Of a stretch of 64,000 nucleotides of DNA, positions 2,311 to 13,599 are shown one piece after another. This DNA comes from Utricularia gibba. Lineage: Eukaryota; Streptophyta; Magnoliopsida; Lamiales; Lentibulariaceae. The stretch is taken from assembly GCA_002189035.1 (NCBI GenBank), contig NEEC01000020.1, positions 868,001-932,000 of the forward strand, in the 5' to 3' direction. The notes beneath the pieces were generated by a model that was given only the letters and a program-made list of their open reading frames with translations, did no database searches and was not told where the DNA came from. How positions within the stretch are numbered: the stretch's first letter is position 1; each line of letters starts with the position of its first letter. The translations under genes were made by a program, and so were the position numbers.

Positions 2311-2319
2311 CTCCGGCTG
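2311..2319. repeat. Left 9-bp target-site duplication of the MULE
   Basis: CTCCGGCTG matches the right copy CTCCGACTG in 8 of 9 positions. The single difference is a G/A transition. Confidence 0.7.
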
Positions 2320-2784
2320 GGAGTTTTTACCAAATCCACCAACTGTAAAAAAACCTACTTCCAAAATCACCTACTATGTGCATCTCAACTTTAATGTGTG
2401 TCAAAGCCACCCATACTACAGATTTTCTTTTTCATTTTTGAATTTCTTTTTGACAACATATTTTAATACTATTATATTTTTTACAAAAAAATAAAAATAT
2501 ATTATATTCGTTTTGCAAATATTGTAACAAATATTATTAAAATATCTTTTTTAGAATTCAAAAATTATATTAAATAAAAAAATCAAATTAAATTTTTGAA
2601 AATGTATATTTTATTTAATTATTATATATTCAAAAATATATACAATTAAACAATGGAAAAATAAATAATTTAAACAAAATGAAAAATCAAATTATATTAT
2701 ATATTCTTTTATAAATAATAAATCAAATTAAAAATCATAAATATCGTTTCATTTAACTTTTTCATGTTAATATTTTTTATTTAG

Positions 2785-3560
2785 GTTGATCACTATAATT
2801 CATTAATTATAGTTATCAGAAATAAAAAAATATAAAGAAAACAACAATTACATATTTATGTCGATCACTACAATTTATTAATTACAGTTATTAGAAATGA
2901 AACTAATATAAAGAAAATAATAATTACATATTTCTTCCAATCACCACAATTCATCAATTACAGTTATCAGAAATAAAATTAATATAAACAAAATAATAAT
3001 TGTCTATTTCTAACGATCATTGTAATCATCAATTATAGTTACCACAAATAAAAGTAATATAAGAAAAACCATAATCGTTTATTTATGTCAATCACTATAA
3101 TTCATCAATTACAGTGATTAGAAAACATGGTGATAATAGTCTATTAAGCAAAAGTGTTCCGAACAAGCATAAAAGAGAAAATAAGAATTACTCGAGCAAT
3201 AGTTTGTATCTTTAAATTTTACGATCACCGTAATTAGCGATTACAGTTACCAGAATTGAAAGTAATATAAGGAAATGATAACCTGTTTCTACGGATCAAC
3301 GTAATCATCAGTTACTAGAGAAAATAATTATAATACTTTATTAAGCAAAACGATGATTACCTATTTCTGCGGATCATCGTAATCATCAATTACAATTCTC
3401 AGAGAATATGCTTATAGTATTCTACCAAGCAAAATGATGATTATCTATTTCTGCCGATCACCGTAATCATCAGTTACAGTTACTAGATAACAATAAAGCA
3501 AAAGTGCTCCTAATATGCATAATGAAATAGAAAATGAGAATTACTCTACTAATGCTTTGT
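2785..3560. repeat. Left subterminal palindromic array of the MULE, about 78-bp period
   Basis: About nine imperfect units, mostly spaced 77-79 bp, each centre on a palindrome of the form AATCACTGTAATT / AATTACAGTGATT, for example near 2800, 2877, 2953, 3108, 3388 and 3467. Between cores runs AT-rich sequence such as AGAAATAAAATTAATATAAA. A larger duplication of about 320 bp is overlaid. The stretch near 3165-3220 is repeated near 3490-3560 and includes the last codons of the minus-strand FCP1-like gene. The array is the inverted counterpart of the right array at 9895-10455. Confidence 0.8.
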
Positions 3561-4620
3561 AATACTCCCAATCTAGATGGTCTTCATTCATTGGGGCTTG
3601 ACCAATACGAAAATCACGCACAAAGGATGACACATCAAATGCATCTATAAGTACTTCAAGAAAAGTCTTCATCTCAGCCCCTTTCATAAAAGATGAATCT
3701 TTTTTATCATCCGTGTGCTTGTAAGAGTATGGAAATGTGGCATTGTCAATCTATTTGAGAATCAGTAGACTATAATTTAAACTAAAAAAATAAAATTTAA
3801 CTTATGAAATTTTTAACTAAAATTATTACCGGATTTGTTATAGACTTGTATGATGAATCATCTACCAACAAGGTGTTATCATGTGTATACCGGCCATGAA
3901 AAGCATCATACTCCTATATTTTTCGCAACTCTTTCAGCAAAACCATACTTGCTGGCTTCTTGAGGACTCGAAGGTTTGTGGTGGCGCATTTCGTTCCATC
4001 TCATATGAATGCCAAATTTGACATCTTCTCGCCAAACATCCAATTAATGACTTGGTTTAGTTGTGCACTGTTACAAAAAGAATAACATGTAAAACATATA
4101 TATAAAAAAGATAATATAATATTTTGTATGTTACCCTCCACGTGACGACCATAGTGCAACATCAAAATGTTGCATACACCATTCCATAAACTCCCTAGCA
4201 TTTGGTCTTAGAAACACTTAAAATATAACATATGCAATAAAGTCAAGTTAATAAATTAGCAACTAACTATATGTTGCAAATGTGTGAAATACTAAATAAA
4301 TACTATACCTGCTCGCCCATAAATCCACTTATGTGGACGCCCTTTGATGGTTGATGATGAATGAAAAATAATATCATCAAAAATGCCATTGACGTCAAAT
4401 ACTACTAATTTCTGAACCGTTGGAATATGACAACTTGATTCACAGAAAGAAGGCCATTTGGATTGATATCACTTTAGTTGTTGCTTCAATGCCTCATTTT
4501 CAGATGCCAAATCATTTGTTTCATTGTCAACCGCCACATCTTCGTGTAAATTATCAACATCATTTCCACTTTGATCATCCACATTATCATCCTTCTTTGT
4601 AATCCTTTTTTTCCCACACC
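3541..4620 (-). pseudogene. FCP1/NIF-type (HAD) phosphatase-like gene carried in the MULE, broken
   Basis: Minus-strand exons translate to the FCP1/NLI-interacting-factor pattern. First comes an acidic linker (about 4480-4620), then KLVVFDVNGIFDD (about 4330-4400, the DxN/D nucleophile motif), then EFMEWCMQHFDVALWSS (about 4133-4203). YTHDNTLLVDDSSYK follows (about 3855-3910, the conserved VDD(S/T) motif), then a last exon ending at stop 3541-3543. FCP1-type enzymes dephosphorylate phosphoserine or threonine, classically on the RNA polymerase II tail. Two codons where the family usually has Trp (before DGTKC and before EYDAF) read TGA and TAG. The gene is therefore probably dead unless these are splice artefacts. 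It lies immediately downstream of the transposon-protein-like segment on the same strand. Whether both were one gene is not clear. Confidence 0.65.
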
Positions 4621-4892
4621 AAAACTTGGCTGTGCCTCAGATTCTAAAGATGGGAAGTACGATTGTAGTCAATGATCTAGTTTGTCCTTTAAAAAAAGCA
4701 ATGAATTCATCAACGACATCCCTTAGTAACATTTCAACACCTAAAAGTAAGCATAAGTAAATTAGACCAATAAAATCAAAACAATTCTTAAAAAAGAACA
4801 TAGTATAAAAAATTATTTAACGCATAAAATACATTGTGGTTTTCTAATAAGATGAGAATTTGGAAGTGTGCGTTGGAAATCATTTGGTAAAT

Positions 4893-5333
4893 TTATACAA
4901 AACTTGTCCACCAACTATCATAGCCACTTCGTAGACCTTTCACTAATTTAATTGTAGACATACCCTTTATCACATAATTTGATGAATCCTTTATTTTACT
5001 ACACATGATCACAACAAAGAAAATAGGAAATTTTAGAGGAATGCTTTCCTCACAAGCAATGTAAACCCATGCCAATATATATGCCACTCACTTAGGAGTC
5101 AAATGTGAAAATGGAATTTGAAGGCATGTCAAAACTTGCAACATAAATAGTACCATTGGCACACGCAAGCCACATCTAAGGTGCTCAGTGGTGATAGCAA
5201 AACTCCTAGGACTAACACGTTTTGGATTATCACCAACGATCTCTTCATCCTCTTCCTTATCCCACAATTGATATTCAGCAGGAATATTGAATCGAAGCCT
5301 CAACTTTTCTGATGTGTTCATCTCTGCATAAAG
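4893..5333 (-). pseudogene. Plant transposon protein-like segment (Transposase_28-like), broken
   Basis: After an AG acceptor at 5334-5335, an ATG at 5331 starts a frame of 81 codons. It has an acidic stretch (DKEEDEEIVGD) followed by GLRVPMVLFMLQVLTCLQIP and FSHLTPK. An in-frame TGA (5085-5087 region) precedes continuing similarity (VAYILAWVYIACEES, then KLVKGLRSGYDSWWTSF). The order of a Gly-Leu-Arg-(Leu/Val)-Pro motif, 'L(T/S)P' and a later 'GL..G...W...FF' resembles the plant Transposase_28 'putative gypsy-type transposon' family. This is pattern recognition and unproven. Further stops follow. It probably forms the 5' part of the minus-strand transcription unit of the MULE. Confidence 0.4.
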
Positions 5334-5429
5334 AACAATGAAAATGGATACTTTCAAATCCATAAACTGTGATGAAAGCATTTCAGTGACTAAAATTTCA
5401 TAATAAAATAAATTTCGTATAATTTCATA

Positions 5430-6230
5430 GCCACACACCGTAATGAAAGCATTACAGTGACTAAAATTTCATAGCCACACACCGCAATGAAGGCATTACA
5501 ACGACTAAAATTTTACAATAAAATAAACTTCACATAGTTTTATAGTCACACATCACAATGAAAGAGATACAGTGACTAAAATGTCATAATAAAATCAACT
5601 ACACATAATTTCATGACAACACACCACAATAAAAGAGATATAGTGAATAAAATATCACAATAAAATAAATTTCTCATAATTTCATAGCCACACACCGCAA
5701 TGATTGCATTACAGTGACTAAAATTTCACAATAAAATAAATTTCGCATACTTTCAAAGCCACACACCACAATGAACATATTATAGTGATGAAAAATACAA
5801 AACAAAAAAACATCTGCATAAAGCCACGCACTGCAGTGAACGAATTACGATGACTATAAATCCAAAATATAATAAACATATGCATACTTTCAGAGCCACG
5901 CACCGCAATTATCGCACAATATGGTGACGATAGTAAAATAACGTTTCATATACTTAGAGATCTTTGCACATTACAGTGACCGTAATTTCAAAATGAAAAA
6001 GAGTGGGGATACTTTCAGAGCAATGCATTGTAACAAACGCATTATGGTGACTATAATTTCAAAAAAAAAGCCATCCATCCTTTTTAAAATCACTCACAAC
6101 ATTGATCAATATAATGACGAAAATTTTCAGATAAAACAAATCTTGTATGCTTTCAGATCCTTGTGAAATAGAGAACACAATACTATGACCATTAAGATAT
6201 AAAAAACATAAACAAAAATTACACATAAAC
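5430..6230. repeat. Internal palindromic array, about 71-bp period, in the intron of the minus-strand MULE gene
   Basis: About eleven units carry a core like CACACCGTAATG-AAAG-CATTACAGTG, near 5434, 5477, 5549, 5622, 5692, 5762, 5826, 5899, 5965, 6025 and 6090. The arms CACCGTAATG and CATTACAGTG are near-perfect inverted repeats. Between cores is ACTAAAATTTCATAATAAAATAAAT-like sequence, in pieces. The array fills the proposed intron between a donor at 6235 and an acceptor at 5334 on the minus strand. Confidence 0.75.
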
Positions 6231-6235
6231 CATAC

Positions 6236-6320
6236 CTGTTCTGTGTGAAAAAACCTTTGAAATGTGAAGATTGATACGGTGGTTGAAGAAGGAAGAGAAG
6301 AATGGTGTAAATAAATTTTT
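6236..6320 (-). other. Probable 5' non-coding exon of the divergent minus-strand MULE gene
   Basis: On the minus strand CACAGAACAG is followed by GTATGG, a good donor at 6235. The nearest acceptor is TATGCAG just before 5333, two bases upstream of the first ATG of the next exon. A pyrimidine-rich leader-like stretch lies upstream. The exon's 5' limit is not determined. Confidence 0.35.
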
Positions 6321-6489
6321 GAAGTAATTAATTTGTTTTTTAAAACCCAATTTAATAAATTCAGGAAAATTGTCAGTCTATTTTATCGGGAACCGAATGA
6401 TACTTTTTCAGTCAAAGATACTATAGCACGTGATAAGTGAAAGGTGTGCGAAGTAAAATTTGACGCGATTCTTCTAAAAATAGCAGATT

Positions 6490-6565
6490 TACGGATGGTC
6501 ACCGTATTACGGTGACCATACTTGAGGTTTAGGGTAAACCTCGTTTACCCTAAACCCTAAATCCT
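6490..6565. promoter_or_regulatory. Two adjacent perfect palindromes with telo-box between the divergent MULE genes
   Basis: At 6497-6517 the arms GGTCACCGTA and TACGGTGACC flank a single T. At 6526-6556 the arms GGTTTAGGGTAAAC and GTTTACCCTAAACC flank CTC. The second continues into ACCCTAAACCCTAAATCC, a plant telo-box type sequence. Both lie in the gap between the minus-strand leader exon and the transposase, so a shared control region is likely. The first palindrome is the strongest version of the motif repeated in the three arrays. Confidence 0.6.
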
Positions 6566-7129
6566 ACAAATCCATATGATTAATGTTTTGAAGATGGGAT
6601 TAAAAAATATGATCATATATTGAACATAGTTATGAATTACATATGATTTGCAACTTATTACAATTTTTTTTACATACATGAATAAGATTCAAAAAAATGT
6701 GAAATAAATGTGTATGTAGTGTTTTAGATGTAATAATGAGAATGTATTTCATTGTGAAAAATTCTTTGATTTCGATTTTTTTTACTCGAAAAATAGGAAA
6801 AATATACATATATACTTAATCACACGTTTTCAGGTTGTTAAACATAGTAAATCTTAATTAATTTGAGTAATTTTGATTATATTTTTGGATGCTCATTGGT
6901 TTCTCCATTGCGGTGTGCCGCCTATATTCCATTATTAGCAGACAACACAGACAGCTACATGTTCCAAGATCAATAAAGTCTACTGATTTGTGTTTCAATG
7001 TTTTGGACTCACATGCCTCAATCACATGACCGAATTGTTCAAATTTAAAGGCTTTTGAAAACCATTCTTTCATCCTTCTCCAAAACCTCATCTTCTTGCA
7101 ACCTCATTCTTACATATCTCTCTATTTGG

Positions 7130-9864
7130 ATGGCTTTCAGATCTTTCTCATGCAAGGTCTTCTTTGGAGATCAAATCTATAATTACGGGAATTACGTAAG
7201 TTATAGTGTGGCACCAATCCAATTTTTTCAGTCAGATGCCGATATTTCATTAGAAGAATTAAAAGCAAGGTTATATGAGATTGTTCAATTGTCTTCTTCA
7301 AGGTTCAATCTTAGATTATCAGCCCAATTTTTTGATGTTGTGACTAGAGAAACGATGTATTTGAATTTAGAGATACAGAATAACCTGGATTATCTTCATG
7401 TACCTAACCATGTTATTGCTCCGGTGGATTTATTTGTGGAATACGACCCATTTTTTTCAAAAGAACCTCACTCACAAATTAGAGACAACGGTAATGACTA
7501 TTTCTTTCTTGTAAATTTCGAAATTATATATGTTTTTTTTAATTTTATGTTATTCTATTTTCCTATAGATGAATATATGGATTATGATTTCGGTCCAGTC
7601 CAAAATATTGATGGCGATTCATTTATGTAATTCACTAATGAAAATGAGGTTCCCGATATTGATCATACTCCTCAAAACTCAAAAGGCGAAGAGAATGTGC
7701 TTGAAGGAAACGCAAGTTGTGATTCGGAATGGTTTCCTAACTTAGGTTTACATGATATAGAGGAAGAATCGAGTAATCATGGAGTATACACACATCAATA
7801 TGAATCGAGATTCAAGGAAGGTGATCTATTTGAAGATAAAGAAGATTTTCGAAGACAAGTTAGAGAATTTTCCATTGAAATTGGAAAGGAGTTCACTGTT
7901 GGTGACACTGAGCTTAGAGTCTTGGAGATGTATTGCAAATAACGTGACATTCAAAATTGTCACTGAAGGATTCGCGCAGTTCATTATAAACAATTGGGAA
8001 AATGGAAGATCTCAAAGCTTATTGAGCCTCACACATGCAAGCGGCAGGGGGCGGGATTCTTTTATCACAGAAACATCAATCATGATTATATCTCTGAGAT
8101 TGCCAAGCCATATATTGAAGTAGACATTGGGACCAAAGTGTCAACTATTATTGCAGCTGTGTTGGATAGAACTAGTTATGAAGTACCGTACAAACGTGCA
8201 TGGTATGGAATGCGAAAGGCATTTGAGAAGGTGTATGACACATGGGAGGAATCAATAAAGAAACTTCCAGCTTTCTTAAATGAAGTTGCCTTACAAAATC
8301 TAGGCACCGTAATCCAATGGAGGAATAAGGAAGATGGAGTCACATTGCACTATTACTTCTGGGCGTTTGGACCATGTATACATGCCTACCAGCACACCCG
8401 TCCGGTTATTTCAGTCGATGCAATGCACTTGTATATGACATATAGGCACAAAATGCTCATTGCGATGACCGCTCTCAATGTGGAAAGATTTTGCCGCTTG
8501 CCTTTGCCATAGTAGATGAAGAAACTAATGCTTCTTGGCTATGGTTTCTAGAGCTAGTGGGAACTTACATTGCTTTGGGAAAACCCACGTGCTTGATTTC
8601 TGATAGATGTGACTCTATTCGAAAGGCAGCAATCAGAGTTACAGCATTCAGTGAAGAATTTGGAGGATGTCATCGCTATTGCTTTCGAATTTTCGAACAA
8701 ATTTCTTTGACAGATTTAAATGTGAGCCGGTTCGAACGTTATTCCTTAAAGCATCATTCACCGGGTACGTGGAGAAATTCTATGATTATGTGGAAGAGCT
8801 TAGAATGATAAATATCGTGGCTTGGAACTACTTAATAAATGTTCCTCCCGAGGCTTGGACAATATCTCAAGATGGTGGTCGAAGATATGGAACAATGACT
8901 ACCAATCAAATTGAAGAAATGAACGGTGTTTTGAAAGGAGCACGACATCTCCCACTTATGGCATTGGCTCAGGTATGATTAATTTGTGTTGTGTTTTAAA
9001 TTTAACGAAAATTTTGTAATAACATGTAGGTTATATTTGCTCGATGCAAAAAGTATATTTCAGAAGGTTTGGAGTTGGGACTAGAGGCACAAAGGAAGAA
9101 TCAAGTCCTTTCAATACAAGCGCAACGATTGTTTGATCATTGGGACAAGTTTCATCCTTATTCAAGAGTGGAGATTTATGATCGCTACGAAATGATAGTT
9201 CATGTAATCACCCGAAGGAAAGCAAATGGGAAAGATAACGTTTGTGTGGTGTGCATCAAGGAGAGCAAATGCACGTGCTGGTAAAATTATGGAATACCAT
9301 GCTCACATGCACAACAAGTTAGACTATAATTTAATAATGTTCATTTATTCAATATGAAAGACATGTTTATTTCAGGCATGCAAGAGACTTGAAGTTGATT
9401 CAAGACAATATGTGGATCCCATACACTTACAACAACATTCGTTGAAAGCATACTAGGTCCAATTCCATCCACTTCGAACAGAGAGACATTGGCAAGCAAC
9501 AATGTCTCTCATTCATGATCCTACACGTAAAAAGGTGATTAGACATGGTCGTACACGTAGTTCACGATATAGGATGAATATGGATAGGGGAAGGAGCACA
9601 GGAAGGAGAAGTGGACATAGTGGAAGACCAAGAGTTTCACAAGATACAGCTTCACCTGCACATAGTCCACCTCAGAGCCATCGAGTATCTATTGATGTAC
9701 CATATCACCGTGATTTCGAAGGTGTTTCTCAACAACCACGATCATCTCTTCAAGAACGACCTCAGGGTATGAACACTAGTATTGATCTTCCTTGCTCGTC
9801 TACTCAACAGCCTAGGAAGCAGAAGTCACTTATGCGTAAATTTTTTGAGTCGTTTATGAAATAA
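7130..9864 (+). pseudogene. mudrA-like: MuDR/FAR1-type MULE transposase, broken
   Basis: The transposase cuts and inserts the MULE. A plausible start is the ATG at 7130. The N-terminal part has the MULE pattern SLEELKARLYEIVQL, then an intron near 7492-7568. Next are the acidic segment, the DBD_Tnp_Mut-like block (FKEGDLFEDKEDFRRQVREF, 7815-7875) and the EPHTCKRQGAG zinc-binding block (about 8027). The MULE catalytic domain follows with VISVDAMHLYMTYRHKMLIA (8409-8470), LAFAIVDEETNASWLWFLEL (8494-8553) and the CHRYCFR region. An intron lies near 8975-9030. A SWIM zinc finger (CTCW...YGIPCSHA, 9271-9310) and a basic Ser/Arg/Gly-rich tail (9502-9864) end the gene. In-frame stops occur at about 7628, 7940, 7967 and 9282, with frameshifts near 8485 and 8680. 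It is very likely inactive. Confidence 0.85.
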
Positions 9865-9894
9865 GGATAAATATTATCAATATGTAAAATATTA

Positions 9895-10455
9895 TTTGTC
9901 TGGTAACTGTAATTGATGAATTACAGTGATCGGCATAATTATGCAATTATCGTTTTCTTTATATTACTTTTGTTCTTGGTAACTATAATTGATGATTATA
10001 AGGATTGGAAAAAATAAACAATTTTCGTTTTGGTTACATTCATTTCTGGTAACTGTAATTGATGATTATAGGGATTGAAAAAATAAACAATTTTCGTTTT
10101 GCTTATATTACTTTCATTTCTGATAACTGTAATTGATGATTACAGGGATTGAAAAAAATAAACAATTTTCGTTTTGTTTATATTACTTTTATTTCTAGTA
10201 ACTGTAATTGATGAATTACAGTGATTGCCAGAAATAAGTAATTGTCATTTTCTTTATATTACTTTCATTTTGGGTAACTGTAATTAATGATTATAGAGAT
10301 TGAAAAAAATAAACAATTTTCGTTTTGCTTTTATTACTTTTATTTATGGTAACTGTAATTCATGATTACAGTGATTGTAAAAAATAGAGAATTATCGTAT
10401 TACTTATATTACTTTCATTTCTGGTAATTGTAATTGATGAATTGTAGTGATTGGT
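9895..10455. repeat. Right subterminal palindromic array of the MULE, about 72-76-bp period
   Basis: Eight units each contain a core like ACTGTAATTGATGAATTACAG with some loss of symmetry, near 9905, 9982, 10050, 10125, 10200, 10275, 10350 and 10425. They are separated by sequence like GAAAAAATAAACAATTTTCG and TTATATTACTTTCATTTCTG. The array begins 30 bp after the transposase stop. Reverse-complemented, it matches the left array at 2785-3560, so the two arrays extend the terminal inverted repeats inward. Confidence 0.8.
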
Positions 10456-11174
10456 CAACATAAATTAACATATGTAAAATTGAAATACAATTAGCATATA
10501 GTAAAACATGAATTCTATTATTGTATTATAAAAAAAATCGACACATTATAAATATATATGTATTATAATGATTCATATAAAATATATCTTTGTATTTGTT
10601 CAAAAAAATCGAATATCTTATGGAATATTATAAATATAAATATTATATTTTGTTATTATTTTAAAATTATTGTACATTTTTAGTAACTTTAATAAATTAT
10701 TACGATGCTTGAAAATCTTGAACACTGTAATTTATATTGTAGTCATCAATTTCAATATAAATTATTATATATAAAATTTGTTTTCATTAATCGAAATATA
10801 ATTATAATATATAGGAAAACATGATTTATATTATTATATGTTCAAAAATAATGATACATATAATATATATGTATTATATTTATAATTTAAAAAAAACGTA
10901 AATATCTTGATGAATATTAGAAATATAAATATGTGTATTTTTTATTTTAAAATTATACAATTATAATTATGAGTAATTTTTTAAAAATATTTTATTAATT
11001 AATTAGTTTGAATGACATAAACAGTGTTTTAAAAAAAATTTGACATATTTATAACAGAAATTATATTATTTAAATGTATATATTTATTATATTTAAATGT
11101 ATACAATATCTAAAAATAAAAATAATTCAAAAAAGAAAAGAAAAAATTAGGATGAATGGTTTTATACAAATAAT
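10456..11174. other. AT-rich right end of the MULE
   Basis: The stretch is very AT-rich with no coding pattern. It lies between the right palindromic array and the terminal inverted repeat that ends at 11234. Confidence 0.6.
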
Positions 11175-11234
11175 ACACACAATGGATGATTTTGGAATTC
11201 ATTTTTTTGCAGTGGTTGGTTTTGAAAATCACCC

Positions 11235-11243
11235 CTCCGACTG
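11235..11243. repeat. Right 9-bp target-site duplication of the MULE
   Basis: CTCCGACTG directly follows the right terminal inverted repeat. See the left copy at 2311-2319. Confidence 0.7.
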
Positions 11244-11437
11244 GCCGGTTGGCCGGTTTACAGAAACTGGCAGTTCAGCAACAGCACTTTAACACATATG
11301 TTCACATTTCACAGCAACCAACATACAGGTACGTCGCTTGATTTGGAGCAGCTGCAAATTAAGATCTCACCAGGCAACAAGGGTGATGCTTGCTGCTTTG
11401 CTCCTCCTTTTGCCCCATCTGATTCCCCGCCTCATCA

Positions 11438-13599
11438 TCACCGATGGTGGCGAGAGTTCTTCCTCACAGGTTTTGTGGCTTCTGTTTTCAAGCCTGGCTG
11501 CCGGACTTTCACCCCTCGTATCATCTGCACAAAGATTACAATGATCCAATATCCCTCTTGATGCAACACAGGAAAAAGAACTAACATATTTGCCACATTT
11601 AGTGTCTGAGTAGATCACTATGAAATCCCCTTCCTGCAGTCCATTCATCCTCACAAAATCTCCTGTATATGTATGATAAACATGGAGTTCATCCAACCAA
11701 GATATGTAACAAGAAACACGATGAATTTGTGTGCATACCCGTGTTCTCTAGTAGGTACATTCTACTCTTGTTGTTCGGCCAAAACCTGGAATCCAACAAT
11801 CGATATTCAGCTTCAAATGTACTTGTTTGATTCAATTTTTCCGACTCTACCTTTTTATTCCATGTAAAACTCAAGCCAGAACTAAAAAGTGTACTTGGGT
11901 ATCAAAACAAGTACCGGTAACGCATTTTCCATACACGAGAGGTTCCAATATCTTCCATTGCAATGGAGATTCCGTCTCTGGATTCCAGCTCGGGAAGATG
12001 GCTTTCAGCTTCCCTCTAGCACCACATTTTCAATTTGATCAACCCAGATCGTCTGTGTAATTGCAGCACAACAACATAGAAGAAAGTCAAGCAAGTAAGT
12101 ACCTTCGGCAGCACAATCCTCCCCAGATTACCCACATCACTTTGCTTCAACACCTTCTGCAGCAAAAACTTCAAATTCTTCTCCGTTTTCCATCCCTAAA
12201 ACCAAGCCCAGCGACATGCTTAGCCAATGCGCTAACTTCTCAAACGAAAAACGCAAATTCATGTAAGCATTAGAGTAACAAAGCACCAAACCTGCGGGAA
12301 TGGGCGCTCGCCGTAGGGCTGATCACCGCCGTGATCACCTGCGAACATCGGATCCAACGAAGGGCAGCCTATCGCAGCCCCCGGATCAGAACAGTTTCCA
12401 GTAGACCAGTGAGCCCAGTTGACCGACTGATCACCAAGTTCATCATCACCGTGCAATAGAGATGGATCATTCAATTGGATAGGGTTGTGGCTGGAGCCTT
12501 CGGTGCAACGGTGATTATGCGAATGCACCTTCCTTTGTCTTGCCATTCTTTTCTTCCGAGCCTCCTTCGTTGCCGAGGACCCTAATCTCGCCAATCCCTC
12601 AGCATTTGCACCATGGATCACTTGATGAAAAGGATGATTACCGTACAACAAACCTTGTTGATTGCTGATGAAGCTGGAATTCTCCTGGAAAATGCCAAAT
12701 TGAGGCGGCATCTGCCACACTGATGGGGAATAATCAGTCACTTGTTGATAATTCTCATACGGGTCGCCGTTAAATCCGGGTGTGATCAACGGCAGCGGTG
12801 GCGGCGCCGGGTGTATCGGCGTGATGTAGGGATTAGGATTGGGATCGGGATAAGGAGAATCTGGGTTTTGAAAAAAGTTGAGATCTTGGGACGCTTCGCC
12901 CCGTTTCTTGTGAAGCTGGTGCTGCTCAACCCAATCGAGGATGAGTTTAAGAAGCTGTTTTTTACCTTCTTTGTCGCTTCCCAGACGCCTGGAAGCGGAC
13001 TCGATAGTGGATCTTTTGAGTTTGATGCTTCTCATGTCCTCCGCCGAAATGCAATCCTTGTTCTGTTTCAGCCAGTTCAAGAAAATCGCCGCGAGCTCGG
13101 AGTTGCCGTCAAGGAAACTCAGACCCTCGTTCCCTTCATCGTATGGTGCGACCCTGGTTTCAGGTTGGTGTTCCCCAATCAACTCCTGAATGCTCTCATT
13201 CTGGAAAACAGAAGAGGGATCCCACATTTCATCGCAATCCATATACCCGAGATTCTGCGGCGGCGGCGGCGCGCTGTGTATAGCTGTGGTCTGCCCCGAA
13301 ATCTCTTCCGGGTCGGACTTCAACAAAACCCACGAGGCGGCAGAGGAGGAGGAAGAAGAAGAAGTGGTAACCGCCGCTTTGCCCGGCCCCGGCGCCGGCG
13401 AGGAGGATGAGGATGAGGATGAGGAAGACACATAGGGAAACTCCGGTAGAGGTGGGAACCCGGCGTCGTAGAAAAAGGAAGCGTCATCCACCCCAAGCAG
13501 ACCGTCATCTCCCCCGCCCCACAAACCGTCCACGTGATCCCCGACCAACGCGCCACCATCCCCCGCCCCCCGGACACGCACCGATTCCCCCAGTGTCAC
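11438..13599 (-). CDS. ABI3: ABI3/VP1-type B3-domain transcription factor
   Basis: This family works in the nucleus in abscisic acid signalling, seed maturation and dormancy. Its B3 domain binds RY (CATGCA) elements and its B1 domain contacts bZIP partners. Six exons fit in phase: 13599-12292, 12195-12103, 12015-11915, 11785-11739, 11662-11586 and 11524-11438. They give about 570 residues. Visible parts are an acidic N-terminus with FPPLPEFP and Ser runs, B1 (about 162-235, [18 protein letters not shown]), B2 (about 344-358, [14 protein letters not shown]) and B3 (about 437-545, [52 protein letters not shown]). The exon pattern, with a long first exon and the B3 spread over short exons, is typical. 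The protein is shorter than Arabidopsis ABI3 or maize VP1, with only about 28 residues encoded after exon 5. The start ATG is the first in frame. The MULE begins 195 bp beyond the stop. Confidence 0.93.

Follow-up and report, generated by a model that had tools for sequence, protein, structure and literature searches.

An FCP1/NIF-like accessory gene recurs with a common 24-bp dyad array in MULE, PIF/Harbinger and hAT transposons of Utricularia gibba

Anti-silencing by proteins that transposons themselves encode is experimentally known from few cases (VANC and the TnpA protein of Spm), each confined to its own superfamily. In the two-gene Mutator-like element (MULE) MuDR, mudrA and mudrB lie convergently between long terminal inverted repeats (TIRs), flanked by a 9-bp target-site duplication (TSD). 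Here we describe an element of similar build at positions 2311-11243 (target duplications included) of a 64,000-nucleotide stretch of the Utricularia gibba genome (GenBank assembly GCA_002189035.1, contig NEEC01000020.1, positions 868,001 to 932,000, forward strand), which we refer to in its entirety as the window. Its two genes also lie between long TIRs with a 9-bp TSD; unlike those of MuDR, however, they are divergent, and the second one, which we call the accessory gene, encodes a NIF domain. The same accessory-gene clade recurs in three transposon superfamilies, MULE, PIF/Harbinger and hAT, and it travels together with arrays of a common dyad.

Several parts of this arrangement have described counterparts. 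In the MUDR and MUDRAVI2 groups of MULEs, the second gene is likewise antisense to a SWIM-type transposase and the TSD is 9 bp long (PMC6446971), but there it encodes a plant mobile domain, which Pfam does not find in the window element. The VANDAL MULEs of Arabidopsis, which encode VANC, have an accessory gene as well. In their non-coding DNA, among other places within the introns of that gene and ahead of the transposase, a short motif is repeated in tandem, with arrays that vary among related families (PMC5735166, PMC10398659); in VANDAL21, VANC motifs are found in these two places (PMC5735166). A host-derived enzymatic accessory domain in more than one superfamily is known from the Ulp1 transposons, i.e., the KIU/Kaonashi MULEs and the MULEs and CACTAs of grapevine (PMC2528002, PMC13317346), and this domain has been found in two superfamilies, MULE and CACTA (PMC2528002). 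There, however, the domain is an Ulp1 protease rather than FCP1/NIF, and no shared target array is reported in the available text (PMC2528002, PMC13317346).

The initial annotation of the window, made from its letters alone, had delimited the element by imperfect TIRs and an 8/9 matching pair of 9-mers, and had placed a transposase on one strand, a divergent gene on the other, and repeats within an intron; all of this held up. By local alignment, the two ends form imperfect TIRs of ~130 bp with a score of 59, whereas none of 500 shuffles scored above 30, and the chance of an 8/9 TSD match is about 1e-4 per pair. The plus-strand gene matches PF10551 (MULE; Pfam, E=4e-7, 30.8 bits against a cut-off of 27.6), and a SWIM-like CxC..CSH motif was spotted by eye near 9270-9320. 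Three features expected of a MULE are present: the PF10551 domain, the TIRs, and a TSD of 9 bp (8-11 bp expected). Both genes of this copy are pseudogenes: the transposase gene changes frame several times and contains an in-frame stop at 7629, and the accessory gene on the minus strand (coding exons 5321-3541) has five internal stops and a frame break near 4895. The description of the element as near-complete therefore applies to its structure and not to its coding capacity, and the window element is a dead, decayed copy of a two-gene MULE family.

Read through its stops, the accessory gene matches 2 Pfam domains above their curated cut-offs, PF03031 (NIF, E=1.5e-9) and PF04195 (Transposase_28, E=4.7e-6), in an exon-intron model predicted from splice-site sequences and from the frame kept in other copies. 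The protein read in this way begins with a Transposase_28-like part, which an acidic linker joins to an FCP1/NIF-like domain that is complete. The NIF domain is what it has in common with plant FCP1-like host proteins and the UBLCP1/SCP phosphatases (the closest solved structure by sequence is that of UBLCP1, 3shq, E=0.003); it differs from these in its extra N-terminus and in the replacement of the second catalytic Asp. In the exon B motif KLVVFDVNG, the nucleophile Asp is retained and the second Asp has become Asn, and the catalytic pattern DxDx(T/V) is matched neither in the window family nor at 2 further loci described below (L069 and L070), where DVNG is found as well. Given this DxNG motif, the accessory protein is probably a pseudophosphatase.

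Other copies of the element were sought in 100 Mb of host genome. The minus-strand gene and the transposase served as queries, as did the right TIR, and their matches converged on the same loci. The minus-strand gene is carried in the same architecture by 13 loci including the window, and the right TIR is present at 13 genomic places. When joined, the matching stretches reveal copies that are colinear, mostly share 84-94% identity and contain the two genes as well as the arrays. A 9-bp TSD is readable in 7 copies, being perfect in 2 (CCTGTCTGG on contig C451 and GTATTCGAG on C2), 8/9 in 4 (the window and copies on C409, C414 and C244) and 7/9 in one. The accessory gene has therefore co-transposed with this MULE family. 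Transposase and accessory gene co-occur in most copies, which sets the family apart from Pack-MULEs, in which the transposase is lost and the captured fragment is unconserved. The suggestion that some MULEs form a subfamily whose second gene is FCP1/NIF-like was thus supported, with TIRs and 9-bp TSDs wherever the ends of copies sharing the divergent gene are readable. MULEs are not the only elements to have this gene, however, as PIF/Harbinger and hAT elements contain the same gene clade and the dyads too.

Some of these copies have further peculiarities. In those at C3:5,053,273-5,063,934 (L014, L030, L041) and C244:1,112,856-1,122,129 (L019, L031, L055), nested insertions of ~1.15 kb, 92% identical, interrupt exon A of the accessory gene at points no more than ~10 bp apart; their differing flanking repeats suggest two separate insertions. 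The copy at C2:2,081,374-2,104,891 (L044, L061, L020), one of those with a perfect 9-bp duplication, is interrupted by ~12 kb of other DNA containing a PIF-type transposase match (C2:2097618). The very similar stretches C48:25,557-33,455 and C451:3,818,979-3,828,559 appear to contain one and the same element copy, present on two contigs probably through duplication of a piece of the assembly.

Searching the genome with the accessory protein gave 211 exon matches, for the most part with 35-50% identity, and exon D on its own gave 136; about 126 accessory-gene loci lie beyond the window family, or about 139 in all. For these 126 loci, we counted transposases within 6 kb, using the top-150 list of matches for each transposase and comparing with random placement. 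Among the matches listed, DDE_Tnp_4 (PIF/Harbinger) was found near 36 loci (random mean 3.9, maximum 11) and the hAT dimer domain near 24 (random mean 3.6, maximum 11). In 35 of the 36 PIF-type loci, gene and transposase share a strand, and the transposase is upstream at a distance of mostly 1.4-3.9 kb. As a control for clustering of transposons in general, at 8 kb PIF matches were near hAT matches in only 10/147 cases, and MULE near PIF in 8/150. A search for CACTA transposases (PF02992) gave no match in this genome, but its control gave none as well, so that nothing follows from it for CACTA elements. Some superfamily labels are incidental, as for C451:4969, which is hAT by proximity and falls with PIF-type genes (PIF-b) in the tree described below. 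At the PIF-type locus L069, the accessory gene lies between a Myb/SANT open reading frame (PF12776, E=1e-12) and a DDE_Tnp_4 transposase (E=2e-9). At the hAT-type locus L070, it lies beside a hAT transposase (PF05699, E=4e-20), and TIRs (TAGAGGTGGGCA/TAGAGCTGGGCA, 11/12 match) with an 8-bp TSD (ATTGAATC/ATCGAATC, 7/8 match) enclose gene, array and transposase. The pieces of the L070 gene match NIF with E=1.1e-11, exon C of that query being borrowed from L069.

The repeats link the three superfamilies as well. The window element has 3 tandem arrays (2778-3487, 5372-6070 and 9899-10453), the outer two of which are mutually inverted (up to 84% over 208 nt). Repeat and palindrome scans identified CACCGTAATGAAAGCATTACAGTG in the intron array of the MULE, CAGGCACCGCAAATATGCTCTTGTGGTGCCTG at L069 and, repeatedly, CCAGGCACCGCAATGGCATGTTTGCGGTGCCTGG at L070, which have in common the dyad CACCGYAA-N8-TTRCGGTG with identical 24-bp geometry. 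Using this pattern, derived from sites at these 3 loci, we found 10 sites in the window when up to 3 mismatches were allowed (0.24 expected), all 10 inside the element, and 58 sites with at most 1 mismatch in the 100 Mb of genome, compared to 3 for a reversed-pattern control. Of 50 listed sites, 33 have an accessory gene no further than 6 kb away, compared to 1.5 (maximum 7) for random placement, and all three superfamilies are represented; when the listed window and L070 sites are excluded, this still holds for 25 of 42. In the MULE family, the dyads lie on the 5′ side of the gene, in its intron, whereas in hAT elements and nearly every PIF case they lie 0.3-1.3 kb to its 3′ side. Half-sites vary mostly at the CpG (C4 to T and G5 to A, giving TG or CA), a pattern that matches the expectation for methylated, silenced copies.

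Dyads were also seen apart from any listed copy of the gene. At C1:5419495-5419810, C3:5031020-5031099 and C451:5844787, exact or near-exact dyads, some in tandem, have no listed accessory gene within 6 kb; these are possibly deletion derivatives or unlisted loci.

In a tree of accessory genes, the sampled transposon copies split from 2 host genes with a support of 100 (the outgroup sequences being short), and there are distinct groups for PIF-a, PIF-b, hAT-a and the MULE genes of the window family. The gene of L070, of a convergent hAT type, clusters with PIF-b (support 92), apart from hAT-a, a placement that fits transfer between superfamilies. As no selection signal was visible in the window family (see below), selection was examined in the PIF and hAT groups instead, where the ratio of nonsynonymous to synonymous differences per site (pN/pS) was 0.20 within hAT-a and 0.40 within PIF-a; between groups it was about 0.3-0.6, with pS near saturation. 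Judged by these ratios, purifying selection has acted on the accessory gene in the hAT and PIF lineages.

Table 1. Features of the MULE in the window (positions count from the first letter of the window)
Feature	Position	Strand	Basis
Left target-site duplication, CTCCGGCTG	2311-2319		TSD comparison
Left TIR, imperfect, about 130 bp	2320-2450	+	End alignment; boundary common to other copies
Left subterminal array, ~75-bp units; degenerate dyads 2942-2965 and 3093-3116	2778-3124		Repeat and dyad scans
Left subterminal array, second part, 75-84-bp units	3211-3487		Repeat scan
Accessory gene, exon E (the last), FCP1/NIF-like, includes the stop codon	3541-3750	-	Read-through translation
Accessory gene, exon D, FCP1/NIF-like, DGTKC ... 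NTLLVDDSSYKS	3830-4067	-	Read-through translation, protein search
Accessory gene, exon C, FCP1/NIF-like, REFMEWCMQHFDVALWSS	4135-4216	-	Read-through translation
Accessory gene, exon B, encoding the linker and the first part of the NIF domain (KLVVFDVNG)	4309-4740	-	Pfam
Accessory gene, exon A (first coding exon), Transposase_28-like; frame broken by one base near 4895	4833-5321	-	Pfam, family copies
Array in 5′ intron of accessory gene, 71-bp units; best dyads 5436-5459 (CACCGTAATGAAAGCATTACAGTG) and 5693-5716	5372-6070		Repeat and dyad scans
Palindrome GGATGGTCACCGTATTACGGTGACCATAC between the divergent genes; half-site similar, spacing closer	6493-6521		Palindrome scan
Broken transposase gene, with MULE domain at about 8484-8645	7130-9864	+	Pfam, reading frames
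Right subterminal array of 75-bp units, in opposite orientation to the left array; dyads 9905-9928 and 10200-10223	9899-10453		Repeat and dyad scans
Right TIR	11101-11234	-	End alignment; present at 13 genomic places
Right target-site duplication, CTCCGACTG	11235-11243		TSD comparison

Just to the right of the element, an open frame on the minus strand (11370-11747) has a weak match to a B3 DNA-binding domain (E=0.005, below the cut-off).

On balance, we lean slightly towards reading the gene and its arrays as a module, in which a transposon-specialised FCP1/NIF-like accessory gene travels with its own dyad arrays and has a VANC-like role. The protein clade, with its Transposase_28-like N-terminus, would serve MULE, PIF/Harbinger and hAT elements alike. 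Since the dyad is conserved, we propose that the protein binds it as a dimer in non-coding parts of the element (introns, subterminal regions and promoter); the bound pseudophosphatase might then recruit, block or decoy transcription or silencing factors. Because the dyads sit where VANC motifs sit in VANDAL21, the outcome may be that silencing is countered or the element kept expressed, as VANC does for VANDAL MULEs. The module would have switched superfamily more than once. More tentatively, pseudophosphatase gene and bound dyad array could form a self-contained cassette, exchanged among unrelated cut-and-paste superfamilies as a common system of anti-silencing or expression control, which we regard as a serious possibility that falls somewhat short of probable. 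The analogy to VANC (PMC5735166, PMC10398659) has its limits: VANC has DUF1985 and DUF287 rather than NIF, whereas Pfam gives just NIF and Transposase_28 here; its motif, YAGTATTAY, is short and direct rather than a 24-bp dyad; it is described in MULEs only; and its activity has been shown experimentally, whereas that of its counterpart here is inferred from sequence.

A number of observations weigh against this module reading. In the window family, changes in the accessory gene are spread evenly over codon positions (210:225:233), pN/pS is 0.84, showing no purifying selection, and the one-base frame break near 4895 is common to every family copy covering that place. Even codon positions and a common frame break mean that no recent selection is visible on the gene in this family, where it may be dead or supplied in trans. 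Outside the window family, proximity to MULE transposases is weak (11 loci; random 3.4, maximum 12), and 56 of the 126 loci have no transposase from the top-150 lists nearby. A search for TIRs and a 3-bp TSD in the stretch covered at L069 gave nothing convincing. Finally, the N-terminal domain of the protein is without a known DNA-binding signature, and an AlphaFold model of it from five sequences (pLDDT 35) was not used.

We weighed the module reading against four others. Ordinary capture, in which MULE, hAT and PIF families each independently transduplicated a host FCP1-like gene as a passenger in the manner of Pack-MULEs, is a natural thought, as FCP1-like host genes with NIF domains are present in this genome and there is good documentation of capture by more than one superfamily (PMC2528002). 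However, the sampled transposon copies form one clade apart from the 2 host genes, share an unusual N-terminal domain and a history of purifying selection, and have dyad arrays in common, which captures made independently would not have introduced. We consider capture very unlikely and rejected it, on account of the gene clade and the dyad arrays common across superfamilies. The dyad arrays might instead be binding sites of the transposases, with the accessory protein acting elsewhere, e.g., in the transposition complex, in the cell cycle or as a decoy of the polymerase C-terminal domain. Two arrays are indeed subterminal and inverted, like the subterminal repeats of CACTA elements, and the protein has retained its NIF domain; yet the transposases of MULE, hAT and PIF elements are unrelated while the dyad is common to them, and the dyads lie beside the accessory gene (on its 3′ side in PIF and hAT, in the 5′ intron in MULE), not at the element ends. 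This makes such a role for the arrays unlikely.

Another possibility is that accessory gene and array are a mobile unit of their own, inserting beside or into other DNA transposons, which would account for the many loci without a listed transposase and for the gene's occurrence in three superfamilies. Against this, order, strand and distance are fixed in the PIF-type loci (35/36), the layout is constant in the MULE copies, and the edges of the MULE gene showed neither a terminal structure nor a TSD belonging to the gene itself, so that we give this idea little credence. The dyads could also form hairpins that act as RNA, as promoter or intron sources of small interfering RNAs, rather than being bound by protein, and the near-perfect arms of 10-12 bp in the hAT arrays and the location in the intron and 3′ of the gene would suit this. 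A hairpin would need complementarity only, however, whereas both arm sequence and 24-bp geometry are conserved between superfamilies, and we find this explanation improbable.

Antisense second genes (PMC6446971), VANC anti-silencing with tandem targets and Ulp1 domains across two superfamilies (PMC2528002) are each already known separately. For FCP1/NIF genes in plant transposons, we found no earlier report in the open-licence literature, Repbase being outside the search; the combination of an FCP1/NIF-like gene with a common dyad array across MULE, PIF/Harbinger and hAT elements is likewise without precedent in the open-licence literature searched. Many FCP1-like genes of this genome would be explained as transposon genes rather than host phosphatases. 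The finding suggests that transposons trade a common regulatory kit, and the presence of gene and arrays in three superfamilies would show that anti-silencing systems are portable modules under selection, for which it would also provide three independent test settings and an obvious candidate binding site. If gene and array are indeed a cassette exchanged in this way, elements of different superfamilies in one genome could activate one another.

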